From Streptomyces sp. NBC_01716 (GTDB taxonomy: Bacteria > Actinomycetota > Actinomycetes > Streptomycetales > Streptomycetaceae): a stretch of 64,000 bases of DNA. The stretch is from NCBI RefSeq assembly GCF_036248275.1, contig NZ_CP109181.1, positions 4,836,001 through 4,900,000 of the forward strand, read 5' to 3'. The position numbers and the translations under genes are program-made. The notes under the pieces are model-generated. The model saw only the letters and a program-made list of their open reading frames with translations, had not been told where the DNA came from and did no database searches. Positions 7,364 to 14,972 of this stretch are shown here, piece by piece (the stretch's first letter is position 1; each line of letters starts with the position of its first letter).

Positions 7364-8206
7364 GTGCCCACCCCACCAACGCTTGGACCTGTCGCACGCC
7401 TGCGTGAACGTAATGAACGGGTCCTGAAGCTGCGGCAGCAGCTCAGGGAGGTGAACCTCCGTCAGCGCCTGATGCGTGGCTTCGGTGCAAGTGTCGTGCT
7501 CGGCGTGCTCGGCGTCGCCGTCCCTACAGCGCTGACGTGGAAGCGCTTCGACCTGGCACCCATCAATACGGTGATCGTCCTCCTGGCCATCGTATCTGCT
7601 GTTGGGTTCGCGGCGTCCGCTTCAATGGAAACGATTAGGCACGCGAGCCCACGGCCTGGAGCGTTTGGGGCTCGGCTGACTCGCGAGGAGCTGGAACTAG
7701 ATCTCGAAATTGCGATCGAGAACCGGCTAATCGACGCCACCCCACTAGACATCCCCATCCGCAATAGGCAGTTCGCCTATAGCGAGTCCGTACCCGAAGA
7801 ACTGGATCAACTCCGCAAGGAGAGCCACCGTTACCGCCGGCGTCACAACTTCTTCCAGCTTCTGATCATCATCGGTTCGATCGCCAACGCCGGGGCGCAG
7901 ACGTTCAGTGACACCACCCAGCCACTCAAATCGATCATCATTGGCCTGACGATGTTGGTCGCCATCTGCGCAGGCGTCACCGGTTACTACAAGTTCCGGG
8001 AACGCAGCTTCAACTTGCAACAGACCGCAGACTCTATCGAAGAGCATGCTAATGCTTTCCACCTCGGTCTGCCGCCCTATGACAGCACCGACCCTGCAAC
8101 CAACCTCGCGCTCCTCACTGCCAAGGTCGAATCCCTCCGCGTGGAACAAAGACGCCGAGAGCAACAACTCGACCAACCGCCAGAAACACGCGATCCGTCA
8201 AACTGA
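7364..8206 (+). CDS. SLATT/DUF4231 membrane protein
   Basis: The 280-residue protein has four likely membrane helices at about residues 39-57, 66-86, 163-179 and 190-209. They are followed by the family mark YYKFRERSFNLQQTADSIEE and a helical C-terminus. GTG at 7364 follows AAGGGAGAA. SLATT/DUF4231 proteins were proposed, in comparative genomics of nucleotide-signalling conflict systems, to form membrane effectors. No nucleotide cyclase is adjacent here. The gene is richer in A+T than the genes left of it, and it is followed 218 bases later by the nuclease-AlbA fusion in the same direction. Confidence 0.75.
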   Translation: MPTPPTLGPVARLRERNERVLKLRQQLREVNLRQRLMRGFGASVVLGVLGVAVPTALTWKRFDLAPINTVIVLLAIVSAVGFAASASMETIRHASPRPGAFGARLTREELELDLEIAIENRLIDATPLDIPIRNRQFAYSESVPEELDQLRKESHRYRRRHNFFQLLIIIGSIANAGAQTFSDTTQPLKSIIIGLTMLVAICAGVTGYYKFRERSFNLQQTADSIEEHANAFHLGLPPYDSTDPATNLALLTAKVESLRVEQRRREQQLDQPPETRDPSN

Positions 8207-8424
8207 TTCCTAGCCTCGCAAGTCGATGAACGCTTCGGCAGAGGTGCGCGCTGCCATGCGACTGGACATGGAGCCGACGCACGCGCCACCGACAAAGGCG
8301 CGTACTGCCCCGCAGGTAAGGCAAGTTCCGTGCCCGCGCGGCACGAGAGATGCCAGGCTGGTGGGCACCGTTACTCGGACATGCCTCCCAACATATGCAC
8401 GATGTAATTCGTTAAGAGGGAAAA
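8207..8424. other. Intergenic spacer between SLATT and nuclease-AlbA genes
   Basis: I see no convincing gene in this spacer. A short open frame at 8226-8441 on the plus strand lacks a ribosome-binding site and overlaps the next gene. There are A+T-rich stretches near 8390-8425 that may hold the promoter of the downstream gene, including AAGAGGGA just before its TTG start. Confidence 0.3.
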
Positions 8425-9717
8425 TTGGAATCAGTAAGTGAGGCAGCGAAGCAGTTCTGGGCCCCAGACGGCGGCTCGGTCGGTCCATACGACCAAGCCG
8501 GGCAACGTCTCGAAGTAGCCCTGGTTACCGAGCTCGTCGCTCGCGGTGTGGACCCGGCTTGGATTAAGCGGGGGCGCGATGCAACCCTTCCGATGGTGCA
8601 AGGTGTTGATCGAAGCTGGGATCTTGTGATCAGCAAGGACAGCGTTCCACTCGCGGCAATAATTTGGAAGGCGAGTTCCGCAGCCTCCTTCAGGAAAAAT
8701 ATGCGGAATCATATGCAGGAACTGAGCGCCATCGCCGTCGACGTAAGAATGCGTTACGGACATCCGGACCTGTACCGCATCCGACCGCACCTTGGCTTCG
8801 TATTCATCGAGGAAGAACGTCAGGAGCGTACTGCACTTCCCGGCAGGGGCAGGCGGCATGCGCGCGTTGAGTTGCGTTCAAGTACCCTCAGTCGCGTTTC
8901 AGACCACTTCTACGAACGGCTCATACAAACTCGCCTCTACGATAATGCTTGCTACATCGTCTCGAATGGAGACCCTAACTCCGCGCCGAGTCAACCGCAT
9001 CGATCGATGGAGTTGGGCAGTTTTATCGAGCAGTTGGCGGAAGATGTACTCGTTCTGGCAGCGCGCCATGAACGAAACGGACTAACTATCAACGCATACT
9101 TCGAGCTGCTCTCCAAAAAGAATGACATCAGTCACCTGCGCACCCAGGGGGACGAAGCCGCTTTTGAGGAGATGTTGTCGAGTAAGCTGACGGAGGACGC
9201 TCTTTTCGAACTCAAGCAGGGATTCTGCACTGTCAACGACCCGATGAAGTTCGATGATAGAAATTTCGACAAGATTCTAAAAATCGCGTCAGCGATGGCC
9301 AATACAGGAACAGGAGCGGAGGGGGTGATCCTTATAGGCGTTGCAGATGATACTCAAGACGCGGCCGCAATCAAGCGATTTTCTTCAGTAAATAGCATTG
9401 AGGTTGGGGGGTTCTATATCACCGGAACGATGCACGAGATAGATCGCCTAGGAAGAAGTATTGATGAGCATTTCCGCTGGCTCGTTAGCAAGATAAGGAA
9501 TGCTAAACTGACGCCTCGGTTCGCTGAAGAAGTGGCCTCGTCGTTGACCCCCTTCACTTATAAAGGGTATCTACTCTGGAGAATCGACATCAGGGCCATG
9601 AACACTCCTGTTACCTATGACGGAAAATTCTATGTGCGTAGTGGCCCAGGTGTGCGCGAGGTAAGCGGGGACGCCATCGTCGATTTGGTCCGCAAATTCG
9701 ACACGCGTGAAGATTAG
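8425..9717 (+). CDS. PaeR7I/XhoI-like nuclease domain fused to AlbA_2 (Schlafen-type) domain
   Basis: The protein is 430 residues, with a TTG start preceded by AAGAGGGA. Residues about 5-205 resemble the PaeR7I/XhoI restriction enzymes: SWDLVISKDSVPLAAIIWK corresponds to the catalytic D...ExK strand pair, and DHFYERLIQTRLYDNACYIV to the later family helix. The acid of ExK appears replaced by Ile (IIWK), so cleavage may be lost. Residues about 225-430 are an AlbA_2 domain: FELKQGFC, AMANTGTGAEGVILIGVADD and KFYVRSGPGVREVS. No methyltransferase is nearby. The base composition is much more A+T-rich than the core genome, suggesting transfer. An anti-phage or regulatory role is inference. Confidence 0.7.
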   Translation: MESVSEAAKQFWAPDGGSVGPYDQAGQRLEVALVTELVARGVDPAWIKRGRDATLPMVQGVDRSWDLVISKDSVPLAAIIWKASSAASFRKNMRNHMQELSAIAVDVRMRYGHPDLYRIRPHLGFVFIEEERQERTALPGRGRRHARVELRSSTLSRVSDHFYERLIQTRLYDNACYIVSNGDPNSAPSQPHRSMELGSFIEQLAEDVLVLAARHERNGLTINAYFELLSKKNDISHLRTQGDEAAFEEMLSSKLTEDALFELKQGFCTVNDPMKFDDRNFDKILKIASAMANTGTGAEGVILIGVADDTQDAAAIKRFSSVNSIEVGGFYITGTMHEIDRLGRSIDEHFRWLVSKIRNAKLTPRFAEEVASSLTPFTYKGYLLWRIDIRAMNTPVTYDGKFYVRSGPGVREVSGDAIVDLVRKFDTRED

Positions 9718-9830
9718 AAGGGAGCCGAGTCTCGGCGTGATCCGCCTGACCGGAAAGTCGCTACCCGCTTCTCAACCTCGTAAGCGGCCCGAGGGTTTGG
9801 GGCCCGCGTTCTGCGAGAGCCACGTGACTA

Positions 9831-10614
9831 TCAGAGTTCTCGAACACTCCGCAGCACTGCGTACCCGACCCATTCACGCGCGTCGAAGACGTAACCAGCC
9901 ACGAAATCCGCATACTCTGCTTCCGTATGCCATCCAAAGCTGTCGTGGTATATGGCTGTTTGCGTCAGGTCCCACTCACGGGGGGCCGTGGCGAATCCGT
10001 CCAGGTCAATTACGCGCGGATGTCCGGCCGCGTCACGCAGGACATTACCCACGTTGAAGTCACAGTGCAGGTGACCCGACGGAAGCGAGAATTCGAGGCG
10101 CTCATACTCGGACTTCAAATCTCTCGCCATCGAGCGATGAAATGCACGAATGCTCTCCGGGATGGCAGTACCCTCCAGGCGGCTCGCGACCTTGTCAAAC
10201 GGCTGGAGTCGCGGCAGTGAAAAGGTGGCGGCTCTAGGTCGTGGAGCCGCCGTAGCAGCACGCCCATTTCCGCCGTACTCGCGTAGGTGTCGCCGTCTGC
10301 GAGCACTTCCCCGAAGGTGACCGGTTGGTCTTCGATCACGATTGGCTGTTCGGCGTCCGTGACGAGATGGGCGGCGGGATACCCCTGGTCCACGAGCCAC
10401 CGGGCAACGGCTAACTCTCGCCGCACCGAGGTAAGGCGGTCGGCGCCCCTTCCCACCCGCGCGATGATCCGGCCACCGTCGACACGGAAGACGGCATGGT
10501 CGCCTAGCCGAAGGATCTCGATGCCGTCCGGCTCCAGGTCGGCGACTGCGCATGCCCGGCGAAGGATGGCTCTGCCGCATCCGCGTCGAACTCCGTGCGT
10601 TCTGTCGTCGTCAT
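9831..10614 (-). pseudogene. Frameshifted aminoglycoside phosphotransferase-family gene
   Basis: Three frames must be joined to read one phosphotransferase-family protein. ATG at 10614 gives MTTTERTEFDADAAE. A one-base deletion near 10570 moves into a frame reading ILRRACAVADLEPDGIEIL and onward to RRLHDLEPPPF. A second one-base loss at the TTTT run near 10221 moves to the frame with SLPRLQPFDKVASRLEG and the catalytic loop HCDFNVGNVL, then VIDLDGFATAPREWDL. Each break is a single base, so it is either a recent pseudogene or carries sequencing errors. Its start overlaps the stop of the GntR gene (ATGA). Confidence 0.7.
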
Positions 10615-11063
10615 GCCGTCTGCGCCTCCCGTTCGGCCGGCAGCGTGAGGACTTCCCTCTCTCGCCCTGCCCCCTTCCCGATCAGCCCTTGACCTTCCAT
10701 CTGCTCGATGGCAGAGCGCACGGCGGTCCGGGACGCGCCAAACCGCTCGCACAGCTTCTTCTCGGTCGGGAAGCGGTCGCCCACCTTCACCCCCTCGCCG
10801 CGCAACAGGTCAGTGCGCCGCTCGACCAACGGCCGGCGGTCGCCAGTCCCGGCCACGAACCATCCGGCGCCCTGTACCGACTCGATCACACCATCGGCCT
10901 TGAGCGCGGCGAGCGCCCGCTCGATGGTGCTGCGGCTCAGCCATACTCGCTCACGAGTGCTGACTGAGACGGCAGCGCTTCAGTGATCTCGCCGTCTCTG
11001 AATCTTCTCGCGGAGGGATTCGGAGACCTCCAGGTACGTACCTCGCGGACTGCCCTGCGGCAC
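10611..11063 (-). pseudogene. Frameshifted GntR-family regulator
   Basis: GTG at 11063 opens PQGSPRGTYLEVSESLREKI, a typical GntR N-terminus. An extra base near 11000 and a missing base near 10942 break the frame. The middle (DGEITEALPS, then ALVSEYG) is in a second frame and the rest (LSRSTIERALAALKADGVIE through a second winged-helix-like region PTEKKLCERFGASRTAVRSA) is in a third. It probably controlled the phosphotransferase gene with which it overlaps by four bases; both are now broken. Confidence 0.65.
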
Positions 11064-11180
11064 GTGGGCTCCCTTCCTCGACCTCGGCGGTGGCCCGTGG
11101 GCACCTAACGGAAACAAGGTTGCCACGTACGCTGCGACTGAACGACGGTCTCGTATCCGGTGAAGCCCCTCGATGGCCGG

Positions 11181-11717
11181 TTAACGGTGCGGACGACCAG
11201 CATCGGCACGGTTGCTGTCATTCCAGATGTGGACAGCGAAGGTTCCTGAGCCGTACCAGCTCTCGGGCCCCACCTCGGCCGTGAGAGACGGGTACTCGCT
11301 GATGAGCTTCCAAATCTCAGCCAGGTTGACCTGCCTGTACGGCTGGTTAAAGACCAGAGCGGGCCTGCTCGTGTGGTCGTAGAACCCCGGCCTGCCGTGG
11401 CAGTCCCTTTTGGCGCAGCGGCCCTTGTCAAGCCAGTGCAGTCCAGACGAACACCCTGTGCTGCCACTCCTGAGGTCGTATCGGTCCGCCCAGTCCAGCA
11501 GGTCCGCGCGCATATAAACGTAGACGTTCGGGCCGAAGGGCCAGTCCACACCTTCGGCATCACGGGTGAGCACGTCCCGGGAGCGGTCATCCAGAGAGCT
11601 GATTAGCTTCTTCTGGCTGGCGCTCTGGCACCGCGAGCACCACCACTTCGCTTCTTTCCCGGAGCCGAAGAACAGCCCCTCCCGGCTGGGACGCCCGCAT
11701 CCCTCGCAGTCATACAT
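11181..11717 (-). CDS. Hypothetical protein with N-terminal zinc-ribbon-like cysteines
   Basis: The 178-residue protein begins MYDCEGCGRPSREGLFFG and continues to WWCSRCQ, giving two CxxC pairs about 24 residues apart as in a zinc ribbon. A second cysteine cluster (GCSSG...GRCAKRDCHG) lies near residues 88-106. The C-terminal half has aromatic and hydrophobic patches without membrane segments. I do not recognise the family. Zinc binding is inferred from spacing only. It stands alone between the GntR pseudogene and the DUF4365 gene. Confidence 0.6.
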   Translation of the reverse strand: MYDCEGCGRPSREGLFFGSGKEAKWWCSRCQSASQKKLISSLDDRSRDVLTRDAEGVDWPFGPNVYVYMRADLLDWADRYDLRSGSTGCSSGLHWLDKGRCAKRDCHGRPGFYDHTSRPALVFNQPYRQVNLAEIWKLISEYPSLTAEVGPESWYGSGTFAVHIWNDSNRADAGRPHR

Positions 11718-11817
11718 AATCCTGCTCCTTCGCTTCCCCGGGGACCATTCGGCGCTGTGAGAATCGGTCGTACCCGCCCGAAATCACCGGGTACGCACAC
11801 GCTAGACCGCAGTTGAC

Positions 11818-12816
11818 TCACATATCGGGTTCGAGCTGCCTTTTCTTGCGGTCACGAGCGAACCCGACGAAACTAATAATCAAGAATTTGAGACCGAACG
11901 ATGGCACGAGGATTCCTGCATAAATCCAAAATGCACCCCACCATCCACCATCGCCGTTAGGGTCCATTATTGGGATCCAAAGAAAGTTGCTCGCAATGAT
12001 AGAGAGCCACCTCCCCGTCTCCCTAGGGACTCGCCCGGCCCTGAATTCGAAGAATATGGTAAGCGCCATGAACAGCATGAAGTGGTAGAGACTGAGCACC
12101 CAGACGACTGGGTTCACCCAGTCTGCGGACCCTTCAGCGAAGCTGATTTGCCGAGGCCACTCCCACAGCATGATGAGAACTAGAACTTGGATGGGGAGGG
12201 ATCGAATTAGATCCTTGCGAAAAACACGGAGACGTTCTTCATGCCGAAGCGCAAAGTCGGCAAGGTCCTCAAATAGCGGGTTGGGTGCCGTTTCAGGATC
12301 TAGCCCATGCCTGGCTCGGACCGCTTCGGTTAGCGCATCCTCCTGGTTCGCCGCGCGAATCCGCATCCTGGCATCACCAGCATAAGCCGCAACCTCCGCA
12401 TAGAAGGTGTCAATCGTGTCAGAGTTAAGCCGCGAGGTGTTGGCTACTTGAACCCATCCGGGGCTCTCATCTAAGGACTGTAACTGTTCAGTAAGGTTTA
12501 CCCAGAACAGTTCCTTCTTTTTCATGTCGTAGACGACGCCAATGATGGGGATGCGACTCTGTCGCCAGTCGCCGAAATGGTCATCTATGGGGATGGCGTA
12601 CCCTTTGACCCTTTTATACTTCTTGCCACTTTTCACCTGAATGGCAATCCAGTAAGGCGTCCTCTTGCTGCCGCGCGTGAAGTTAACGATCATGTCCTCG
12701 CCGTGATCGTTGCCTCCGTCGATCTCCTGAACGAGGTGATCGTGTTCCTCAAGAAGGGCGCGAAGGGCGTTGACGCCCGCCCTCTCGATCTTGCGACTAC
12801 CACGGACAGTTGACAC
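11818..12816 (-). CDS. DUF4365 nuclease-like domain with C-terminal membrane helices
   Basis: The 332-residue protein uses GTG at 12816, four bases after AGGGGGG. Residues about 8-110 match DUF4365, a PD-(D/E)XK-type fold: ERAGVNALRALLEEH, GEDMIVNF (the acidic residue), PYWIAIQVKSGKKYKR (QxK strand), then a strand-rich part ending in KKKELFWVNL. The rest carries about four hydrophobic segments near 207-225, 236-262, 275-290 and 297-325. A nuclease-like domain tied to the membrane fits effector-type defence proteins, but the role is inferred. The gene is A+T-richer than its surroundings. Confidence 0.7.
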   Translation of the reverse strand: MSTVRGSRKIERAGVNALRALLEEHDHLVQEIDGGNDHGEDMIVNFTRGSKRTPYWIAIQVKSGKKYKRVKGYAIPIDDHFGDWRQSRIPIIGVVYDMKKKELFWVNLTEQLQSLDESPGWVQVANTSRLNSDTIDTFYAEVAAYAGDARMRIRAANQEDALTEAVRARHGLDPETAPNPLFEDLADFALRHEERLRVFRKDLIRSLPIQVLVLIMLWEWPRQISFAEGSADWVNPVVWVLSLYHFMLFMALTIFFEFRAGRVPRETGRWLSIIASNFLWIPIMDPNGDGGWWGAFWIYAGILVPSFGLKFLIISFVGFARDRKKRQLEPDM

Positions 12817-13388
12817 TGGCCCCCCTGAAGTCAGCGACCGCCAGGATAACGGCAGGCACCGACAACCCGGGCTGGTCACGTCCGCATAACCACGCGCTGA
12901 CCTGGCCTTCTCAAGGGTCGTTCGTTGTCCTGGTCTTTGTTCAGCGCGCTGACGGCCGGCGTCGTACACTGCCGTCTGCTTACCGTTCTCCCACTACCTC
13001 GTCGACTGATGCGCGCATGGAGGCCCGGAAACCTTTGGCGGTTTCCGGGCTCCGTCGCGCTAATCGGGCTTGGAGCTGGTCTTTAGACCGCACTTGATGG
13101 CGGGTTCATAGCTGTCGATGTCTCATACCTTCCGGGCTCCTCGCCCGGTCCACTACCTGTGCGCAAGTCTCGTCGAACGCAGCGACGACAGTGCCGCGGA
13201 CTTGGGTCTCGATCTCCTGGCCGGGGCGCCGTGTGGTGTGCCACCGGACCGGCAAGTCCGTGTACAGATCGGTCTCGAACTCGCAGGCCAGCGCGGACAA
13301 TTGCTCAGGGCTGCCGATGTTGAGCCGTTCGCCGCCGGGCAGGAACTCGGCATGGGCGTGATGGACGCACCGGCGGTCGGGAATCCGG
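12817..13388. other. Non-coding or decayed stretch between DUF4365 gene and integrase
   Basis: No intact gene is visible. An inverted repeat sits at 13023-13050. On the minus strand about 13140-13350 a readable but start-less segment (FLPGGERLNIGSPEQLSALA and onward) may be the remnant of an unknown gene fused by chance to the integrase tail. I cannot assign it. Confidence 0.4.
13023..13050. terminator. Inverted repeat, possible terminator
   Basis: An 11-bp perfect stem (GCCCGGAAACC pairing with GGTTTCCGGGC) encloses a six-base loop. There is no T-run on either side, so intrinsic termination is plausible only in the GC-rich style of streptomycetes. It lies in a gene-free interval. Confidence 0.4.
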
Positions 13389-13770
13389 TCACGGAGCCCG
13401 GATGCCCTCAGATCGCGGTTCCCAATCCATGATGCGGTCGACGACCGCTTCGGATACGCCGAGGATGAGCAGAACAGTCGCGGCAGTGTGCCGGGCGTCG
13501 TGGAGGCGGCCGTCACGGACTTTCGCCGCCTTGCGTAGATCTTTCCACCGGTGGAGGTCGGTGTTGGGATTGAGCGGCCTGTCGGTCGGCGAGGTGAACA
13601 CGTACCCCTTCTCCACCCAGTCCTAGGCAAGGGACTGCTCCTGCTCCTCCTTGTGCCGCATCAGGAGCTCCTCGGGCATACCGATCGGACGCTTGCCAGC
13701 GCGCGTCTTGGTGTCCTTCGTCTCGCGCCGTTTCCCGTGGTCCATTTGTGGTCCCAGGTCAGTACCGCAG
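13389..13770 (-). pseudogene. Tyrosine integrase remnant with in-frame stop
   Basis: The C-terminal half of a phage-type tyrosine recombinase is readable: TKDTKTRAGKRPIGMPEELL, then, after an in-frame TAG (13622-13624), DWVEKGYVFTSPTDRPLNP and LHDARHTAATVLLILGV. The HxxR box (HDAR.T) is intact, but the reading frame ends at IMDWE without the final catalytic tyrosine helix, and the N-terminal half is missing. This is a dead integrase, consistent with a decaying island whose right end lies at the tRNA fragment near 17.9 kb. Confidence 0.7.
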
Positions 13771-13990: not shown

Positions 13991-14972
13991 AGGACTTGTC
14001 CGGCCGATCATGTGACTACTCCGCGTCCAGGTCGTTGATGTGGACATGGGGCGGGGTGATCTGAGCGATGCCGAGTGGGAACGGTTGCGGCCGTTCCTGC
14101 CGGTCAGTAATAGGCGTTGTGGCAGGTGGCGGTGCCACCGGCAGGTGATCGACGGGATTCTGCACCGGGTTCGGACCGGCGTGCAGTGGCGTGACCTGCC
14201 CGACCGGTACGGGCCGTGGAAGACCGTCTACGAACGGCACCGTCTCTGGTCCGGTGACGGGACGTGGGAGCTTCTGCTCCAGCAGGTCCAGGCCGCCGCC
14301 GATGCGGCGGGTGAGATCGACTGGGACATCTCGGTTGACTCCACCGTCGTGCGGGCGCATCAGCATGCGGCCGGCGCCCGCACCGACCCGCCGCCGGCCC
14401 CAAAGGGGGCCGAACTGGCAGAACACCAGGGCGAGACCGCGTGGCAGAGCCTGCACGCCCGCCTGGTGGAGGTGGTGCGGGAGGTGAGGGCCTGGGCCGC
14501 TCGCCAAGCTCCACCTGAGCGCGGACGGCCGCTGCCGCCCGCTGTCCCTGATCGTGGCTCCGGGCCAGGGGGCGGACTGCGCCCAGTTCAAGCCCGTCCT
14601 GGACAAGATCCGCGTACCGAAAGCCGGCCCGGGACGGCCCCGCAAGACACTGGACAGCGTCGCGGTGGACAAGGCTTACAGCAACGGCCCCTGCCGCAAG
14701 TACCTGCGGCGCCGGGGCATCCGGCACATGATCCCGGAGAAGACCGACAGCCAGGCCGCCCGCTTACGCAAAGGCTCACGCGGCGGACGGCCACCCGGCT
14801 TCGACGAACACCGGTACAAGAAACGCAACACCGTCGAACGTGCCATCAACAGGCTCAAGCAGCACCGAGCCGTCGCCACCCGCTACGACAAACGCCGCTA
14901 CGTCTACCTCGGCACCGTAACCGCCGCAGCCCTCACCATCTGGCTCCGAACATGATCGGCCGGACAAGTCCT
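13991..14972 (+). mobile_element. IS5-family insertion sequence, degraded
   Basis: The element is about 982 bases, bounded by matched 22-bp inverted repeats at 13991-14012 (AGGACTTGTCCGGCCG...) and 14951-14972. It contains one transposase frame set. The right end interrupts an HTH-type gene at 14973. I see no clear target duplication: the left flank ends GGCT and the right flank starts TTGC. A third perfect copy of the end stands alone at 17737-17758. Confidence 0.8.
14040..14955 (+). pseudogene. IS5-family transposase, frameshifted with internal loss
   Basis: The N-terminal part (frame from 14040: LSDAEWERLRPFLP, then VRTGVQWRDLPDRYGPWKTV and ISVDSTVVRAHQHAAG, which carries the first D of DDE) is continuous to about 14480. 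A short piece in a second frame (GGEGLGRS) leads to a third frame reading KLHLSADGRCRPL onward to VDKAYSNG and NTVERAINRLKQHRAVATRY. The expected RGGFTTK linker is missing about 16 bases. So beyond the frameshift some IS5 members use normally, this copy is damaged and probably inactive. Confidence 0.75.

Follow-up and report, generated by a model that had tools for sequence, protein, structure and literature searches.

The window, by which the whole analysed stretch of 64,000 nucleotides is meant, contains at positions 8425-9717 a gene that, as read from its sequence, joins a XhoI-type domain with a broken ExK motif to a Schlafen-type domain whose active site looks intact. The product would most likely be an abortive-infection protein. 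Under the favored reading, to which a probability of about one half is assigned, it would be a single-protein sensor-effector whose dead half senses invasion and activates an RNA-cleaving AlbA_2 half. We infer a chain of sensing, AlbA_2 activation, RNA cleavage and growth arrest, in which the dead XhoI half would no longer cut and would recognize a sign of invasion, most likely the invading DNA itself, through an altered site, a DNA end or a DNA structure and not simply through CTCGAG. This recognition would switch on the AlbA_2 half, which would cleave RNA, probably tRNA, so that growth stops. The features of the gene are as follows.

8425..9717, forward strand: gene of 430 aa that fuses a dead XhoI module to Schlafen AlbA_2 (open frame, Pfam)
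8414..8421, forward strand: SD-like AAGAGGGA before the TTG start (sequence reading)
8425..9078, forward strand: dead XhoI/PaeR7I domain, residues 1-218 (PF04555, model matches)
8620..8622, forward strand: Asp66, the PD-(D/E)XK aspartate, kept in 12/12 fusions (alignment)
8662..8670, forward strand: Ile80-Trp81-Lys82 in the place of ExK, glutamate lost (alignment)
9079..9153, forward strand: linker, residues 219-243 (match limits against relatives)
9154..9708, forward strand: Schlafen AlbA_2 domain, residues 244-428 (PF04326, model matches)
9193..9216, forward strand: E257-x4-E262-x-K264 motif of AlbA_2 (invariant in 10/10 relatives)
9346..9348, forward strand: D308 of AlbA_2, putative third acidic residue (invariant in 10/10 relatives)

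The gene is a single open frame on the forward strand with TTG as the start codon, and the orthologous frames in S. bluensis (92% identity) and Streptomyces sp. LBL (91%) are intact. The presence of two domains and a foreign base composition, both claimed in the original prediction, were borne out. In the Pfam search, XhoI PF04555 matched residues 31-182 with 48.3 bits (cut-off 25, E=1.5e-12) and SLFN_AlbA_2 PF04326 matched residues 275-413 with 32.3 bits (cut-off 25.3, E=1.6e-7), the latter rising to 35.3 bits when the C-terminal half was searched alone. The GC content of the gene is 0.54, compared with about 0.65-0.76 across most of the window. The fusion protein also matched PADLOC REase_II (E=1.4e-8), while SduA_C of Shedu was absent from its Pfam matches up to E=1. 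The join of the two halves is marked by relatives, since proteins with the XhoI half fused to Shedu match up to residue ~240 and proteins with a GmrSD_N half before AlbA_2 match from residue ~232. The structure was predicted from 22 sequences with a mean pLDDT of 78.8 and a pTM of 0.55, and the relative placement of the halves is therefore not fixed by the model.

For residues 1-218, the model predicts a type II restriction enzyme fold. Residues 8-211 aligned to DNA-bound BstEII (Z 10.8; Foldseek E=0.088 before this second structure alignment), residues 1-228 to NucC (Z 9.9) and residues 1-211 to PspGI (Z 9.6). The original prediction had staked itself on a PaeR7I fold in this half, and the matches to type II enzymes agree with it. 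No related-looking solved structure of the XhoI family was found by sequence search at E up to 1, and no second XhoI was found in the window genome.

The protein belongs to the family by its PF04555 match but lacks the catalytic D...ExK of XhoI/PaeR7I enzymes, which in the window protein reads D66, I80 and K82. The replacement of the ExK glutamate by isoleucine had been foreseen, and the aspartate and the lysine are kept; the altered catalytic motif claimed for the fusion thus holds for the XhoI part and not for the AlbA_2 part, where the motif is intact. Among 41 columns invariant in live XhoI proteins, only 8 are kept in all six fusions compared, and in the YRPxK motif the arginine is lost in 6/6 and the lysine in 5/6. 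Other residues are invariant specifically in the fusions, e.g., R40-G41, W46-I47 and P75-L76 in 9/9 rows. The median charge was -3.5 for the dead module and -2 for live XhoI (p=0.15); the dead module is thus no more basic than the live enzyme, and charge gives DNA binding no support.

The C-terminal half is predicted by the model to have a Schlafen-type fold, as residues 244-428 aligned to the AlbA_2 protein 3lmm (Z 11.2), residues 241-427 to the SAMD9 tRNase domain (Z 9.8) and residues 246-428 to SLFN14 (Z 9.3), with Foldseek E < 0.001 for 3lmm only. E257, E262, K264 and D308 are invariant in 10/10 aligned AlbA_2 relatives, and the half appears to keep its putative catalytic residues. The D308 region aligned weakly to SLFN11 (E=0.54), and the other structure rows aligned by sequence at chance level; the mutants SLFN14-E211A and SLFN11-E209A appear in PDB titles. 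From the E-x4-E spacing in SLFN, together with the weak SLFN11 alignment, the window motif is presumed to be equivalent to the SLFN catalytic residues. Judged by the fold, RNA would be the substrate of AlbA_2 in this subfamily.

Matches to the window protein were obtained in 44 of 394 Streptomycetaceae genomes, and 29 loci were fetched besides the window. In 22 of these 29, AlbA_2 stands behind a GmrSD_N-like half (L004-L006, L009-L012, L014-L022, L024-L026, L029, L030 and L032, assigned by eye; for L005 the Pfam test gave GmrSD_N at E=3.3e-21), so that fusions of this kind are common. Among plasmids, 1031 records matched the window protein (Klebsiella 474, Escherichia 410), and it was the AlbA_2 half that was matched among the 40 matches listed.

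The XhoI half was found with other effectors as well. It is carried on Shedu SduA_C in L041, L042 and L127 (Pfam, E 5e-13 to 5e-15) and on a protein kinase in L043, L045, L046 and L129 (Pfam Pkinase, E 2e-27 to 3e-21); by eye, L128 is a near copy of the kinase fusion L043, and L044 (genome G310) is a kinase fusion whose frame is broken by a frameshift. In total, 12 fusion loci in 12 genomes were obtained, namely three with AlbA_2 (the window gene and its two orthologues), three with Shedu and six with a kinase, S. bluensis (L001 = G1021) being counted once. The dead XhoI module is the part shared across the AlbA_2, Shedu and kinase effectors. That relatives carry it on a Shedu nuclease or on a protein kinase points to the module as the sensing part and to the effector as interchangeable. 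The effector motifs are kept throughout: HRDxK in the kinases, ELK in the Shedu domains and E257/E262/K264/D308 in AlbA_2.

The ExK motif is broken in 12/12 fusions (IxK 4, ExT 4, TxT 2, AxK 1, VxK 1) and intact in 64/66 other XhoI-family proteins, i.e., those outside the fusion list, with a longest frame of 355 aa. The two exceptions are L048 (ExR), whose frame is truncated, and L040 (SxK), a weak match. The aspartate partner of ExK is kept in 78/78 rows; these were obtained from 86 aligned rows, of which 84 remained without identical or contained sequences, and dropping six fragments then left the 78 in which each of the three sites has a letter. In a tree of 74 rows rooted at the midpoint, the 12 fusions make up one side of a 100/100 branch. 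The kinase fusions form one clade and the AlbA_2 fusions another, and the Shedu fusions are spread among deeper branches, with a long-branch warning for SDU_G073. This tree may be read as showing an older Shedu form, with at least two exchanges of the effector. The original prediction had named homologues with a standard triad and a neighboring methylase as evidence against itself. Such homologues do exist, but they lie across the 100/100 branch from the fusions.

These alignments bear on two further readings of the broken active site. That the N-terminal domain is still a nuclease, with another residue replacing the glutamate, is very improbable. In some PD-(D/E)XK enzymes the catalytic residues have moved, and Asp66 is kept in all the fusions and Lys82 in 6/12; however, the damage varies by lineage, with the glutamate lost in 8/12 and the lysine in 6/12, and no XhoI-type methylase was detected in hosts. 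Even less credible is a decaying R-M remnant without function. The loss of catalysis and the frameshift in the G310 kinase fusion would suit it, but 11/12 fusion frames are open, omega is below one in both halves and about 0.1 in the AlbA_2 half, and the residues specific to the fusions are invariant.

Evolutionary rates differed between the halves. In the AlbA_2 fusions (n=3), omega was 0.37-0.56 for residues 1-210 and 0.09-0.10 for residues 244-429. In the kinase pair, the dead module reached 0.39, its kinase 0.23 and the live XhoI alongside 0.09, and in the Shedu pair the values were 0.25 for the dead module and 0.07 for the effector, the last two at a saturated dS > 1. This XhoI pair beside the kinase fusions is the sole live control, as no live XhoI pair with dS 0.08-0.35 was found among 14 chosen proteins; the GmrSD_N-AlbA_2 pair yielded no value. 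The rates fit a fast sensor on a slow effector, and they also fit a relaxed constraint after loss of catalysis.

Beyond Streptomycetaceae, no fusions were found in 394 genomes of the class (PF04555 search, 8 matching) or in 396 genomes of the phylum (fusion-clade search, 23 matching), with a limited number of candidates scored per genome in both searches; apart from the window genome, the longest matching frame was <=321 aa. No relatives were found in phage records, and viral contigs scanned with the fusion clade gave no match. Scans of viral contigs with the live XhoI query yielded 15 loci and those with the AlbA_2 query 4, which fed the structure alignment.

As the original prediction had stated, a partner methylase is lacking: no PaeR7I-type methylase was found in the window genome with a query that was positive in 8/8 genomes with known XhoI R-M. 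The same genome contains 291 CTCGAG sites, compared with 8568 sites of GTCGAC, which has the same composition. Judged from the first 100 of the 291 sites, the few sites of the genome seem clustered near 1.016-1.037, 1.564-1.603 and 1.958-1.966 Mb, perhaps in recently acquired islands.

Across hosts, seven genomes with a fusion and without a detected PaeR7I-type methylase (G000, G013, G073, G130, G322, G958 and G972, with a fragment match only in G130, E=7e-4) contain 33-1260 CTCGAG sites each. S. bluensis was left out of this group because it holds its own XhoI-like protein with intact ExK (L101) and a methylase. The median CTCGAG/GAGCTC ratio was 0.304 in the seven hosts and 0.456 in 37 genomes without XhoI genes (p=0.027), in statistics that ignore phylogeny. 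With GTCGAC as the denominator, p was 0.077, and within the genus Streptomyces (5 genomes, S. bluensis included) it was 0.19. Grouping S. bluensis with the R-M-lacking hosts gave p=0.008 and 0.025, and also p=0.027 in another comparison. The control ratio GTCGAC/CAGCTG showed no group difference (p=0.69). In six Streptomyces phages (L155-L161), CTCGAG was absent from all, compared with 18-48 expected in each; this avoidance is not specific, since GAGCTC was absent in 4/6 and CAGCTG totaled 3 in all six.

These counts weigh on the reading in which the dead domain binds unmethylated CTCGAG as a mark of foreign DNA and switches on the RNase. The descent of the module from XhoI in the tree, the rarity of CTCGAG in the host and the lower ratio in methylase-less hosts would all accord with it. 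However, the depletion is weak, fading with the other denominator and within the genus, and the sites in the seven methylase-less hosts would be expected to be lethal, which makes an alarm at any unmethylated CTCGAG unlikely. A plain reader of the site would also miss the six phages, and the YRPxK residues are largely lost. The plain CTCGAG reader was accordingly set low as a candidate and is regarded as quite improbable. Taken together, the site counts, the phage counts and the YRPxK loss favor a changed DNA target or a role as bait.

In the latter role, the dead enzyme would be an integrated decoy for phage anti-restriction proteins directed against XhoI-type enzymes, and capture of the decoy would activate the effector, so that the protein guards restriction. 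The whole clade of restriction enzymes, inactivated at the active site in several ways, would then be an exchangeable bait or sensor for immune effectors, and an attack on restriction would set off the alarm. Both statements are possible, though we hold them unlikely. Such a decoy needs neither cutting nor a methylase, as in the seven hosts, and an Ocr-like antirestriction protein is annotated in phage R4. The bait changes fast beside a slow live XhoI, with effectors swapped, although the fast change may reflect relaxed constraint. Three kinase fusions (L043, L128 and L044) lie inside a XhoI R-M operon or a few kilobases away; in 9/12 fusion loci, however, no live XhoI is alongside. To our knowledge, no inhibitor of XhoI has been described, which also counts against the decoy.

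The favored sensor-effector reading gains from the surroundings of the relatives. Live XhoI genes adjoin an NPPY methylase in 10/10 loci inspected, while the solitary fusions L041, L042, L045 and L046 have one alongside in 0/4. The fusion in G130 adjoins Gabija (GajA E=4.6e-232, GajB E=2.1e-197), that in G322 Lamassu (LmuB E=3.3e-93, LmuA E=2.4e-27), that in G013 the PADLOC candidate PDC-M54A (E=2e-148) and that in G972 an HNH gene (E=4.1e-13), the nine neighbor proteins having been picked by eye and without a background rate. The suggestion that the gene is a candidate for an undescribed defense effector was strengthened by the position of relatives next to Gabija, to Lamassu and to XhoI R-M operons. 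A role outside defense, as a regulator or DNA-repair accessory whose AlbA_2 binds nucleic acid without cleaving it, would draw on the presence of AlbA_2 domains in some proteins that carry a regulator annotation. It is considered improbable in view of the invariant E-x4-E-x-K and D308, the fold closest to 3lmm and then to the SAMD9 tRNase domain and SLFN14, and the relatives that are fused to Shedu or stand beside Gabija and Lamassu. Separately, four loci (L047, L082, L083 and L103) were seen to hold adjacent pairs of XhoI-family genes, both with intact ExK.

When compared with known systems, the window protein shares with PaeR7I/XhoI (PF04555) the sequence family, the PD-(D/E)XK fold and Asp66 with Lys82, but differs in the lost ExK glutamate, the missing methylase, the fused effector and the separate branch. 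Its AlbA_2 half is up to 60% identical to that of GmrSD_N (DUF262)-AlbA_2 proteins, whose N-terminal half is GmrSD_N (L005) instead of XhoI. In relation to Shedu (SduA), relatives bear the dead XhoI module on SduA_C, whereas the window gene has AlbA_2. With the Schlafen/SAMD9 tRNases it shares, according to the model, the C-terminal fold and the E-x4-E motif, but its sensor half would be a dead restriction enzyme.

A further parallel concerns BrxHII of BREX type 3, in which a degenerate PD-(D/E)XK domain is likewise proposed as a sensor (PMC12839542); there it is a Vrr-like small REase within a helicase, and in the window it is a XhoI enzyme on interchangeable effectors. The same paper suggests that inactive REase domains act as nucleotide sensors and, citing a preprint on bacterial Schlafens, describes Schlafen RNases as backup effectors. 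For Shedu, PMC12904381 reports that the N-terminal clamps bind the ends of DNA and presumes that they determine specificity. The literature search, whose scope left most preprints and subscription papers outside, turned up no description of a XhoI/PaeR7I domain joined to a Schlafen, Shedu or kinase effector.

The dead module may be a retired restriction enzyme that now serves as an exchangeable sensor of viruses. If so, a sequence-specific restriction enzyme would have become a sensor and been transferred among three effectors that are unrelated to one another, and the clade would show how type II enzymes can outlive their cutting role. It would also offer a compact test bed for the targets of the variable N-terminal parts in Shedu and Schlafen defense proteins. 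Three loci lend themselves to a direct comparison of this domain in its live and its dead form, which there share an operon or lie within a few kilobases of each other.

Two further features concern the immediate neighborhood of the gene.

7364..8206, forward strand: SLATT membrane gene, a neighbor without a conserved link (SLATT_1 match)
8417..12986, no strand assigned: block shared at ~92% identity, up to 12986 for S. bluensis and up to 11085 for Streptomyces sp. LBL, close to where that contig ends (blastn)

The SLATT gene itself is real (NCBIfam SLATT_1, E=8.5e-23). Homology to both orthologues, however, begins at 8417, 8 nt upstream of the start codon of the fusion gene, and in 2/2 orthologues with flanks read the place of SLATT is taken by a different gene without relation to it (460 or 452 aa). 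The proposed partnership with SLATT did not survive this survey of the neighborhood and was ruled out, as the SLATT gene lies outside the homologous block.

Inside the block, a DUF4365 gene at 11818-12969 on the reverse strand (Pfam E=2.5e-15, membrane-like C-terminus) is kept together with the fusion gene in S. bluensis, and it is the sole neighbor of the window copy with a defense-type match (PADLOC Aga_REase, E=8.6e-8). At 9831-10889 on the reverse strand, a phosphotransferase-like and a GntR-type gene appear in pieces across several frames, and the corresponding place in S. bluensis has a single 346-aa frame together with a GntR-type frame of 171 aa. Just to the right of the shared block, a fragment at 13389-13616 on the reverse strand resembles the terminal part of a tyrosine integrase, and at 14554-14955 on the forward strand lies an IS transposase (DDE_Tnp_1); because of these two, the locus looks like a mobile-element remnant.
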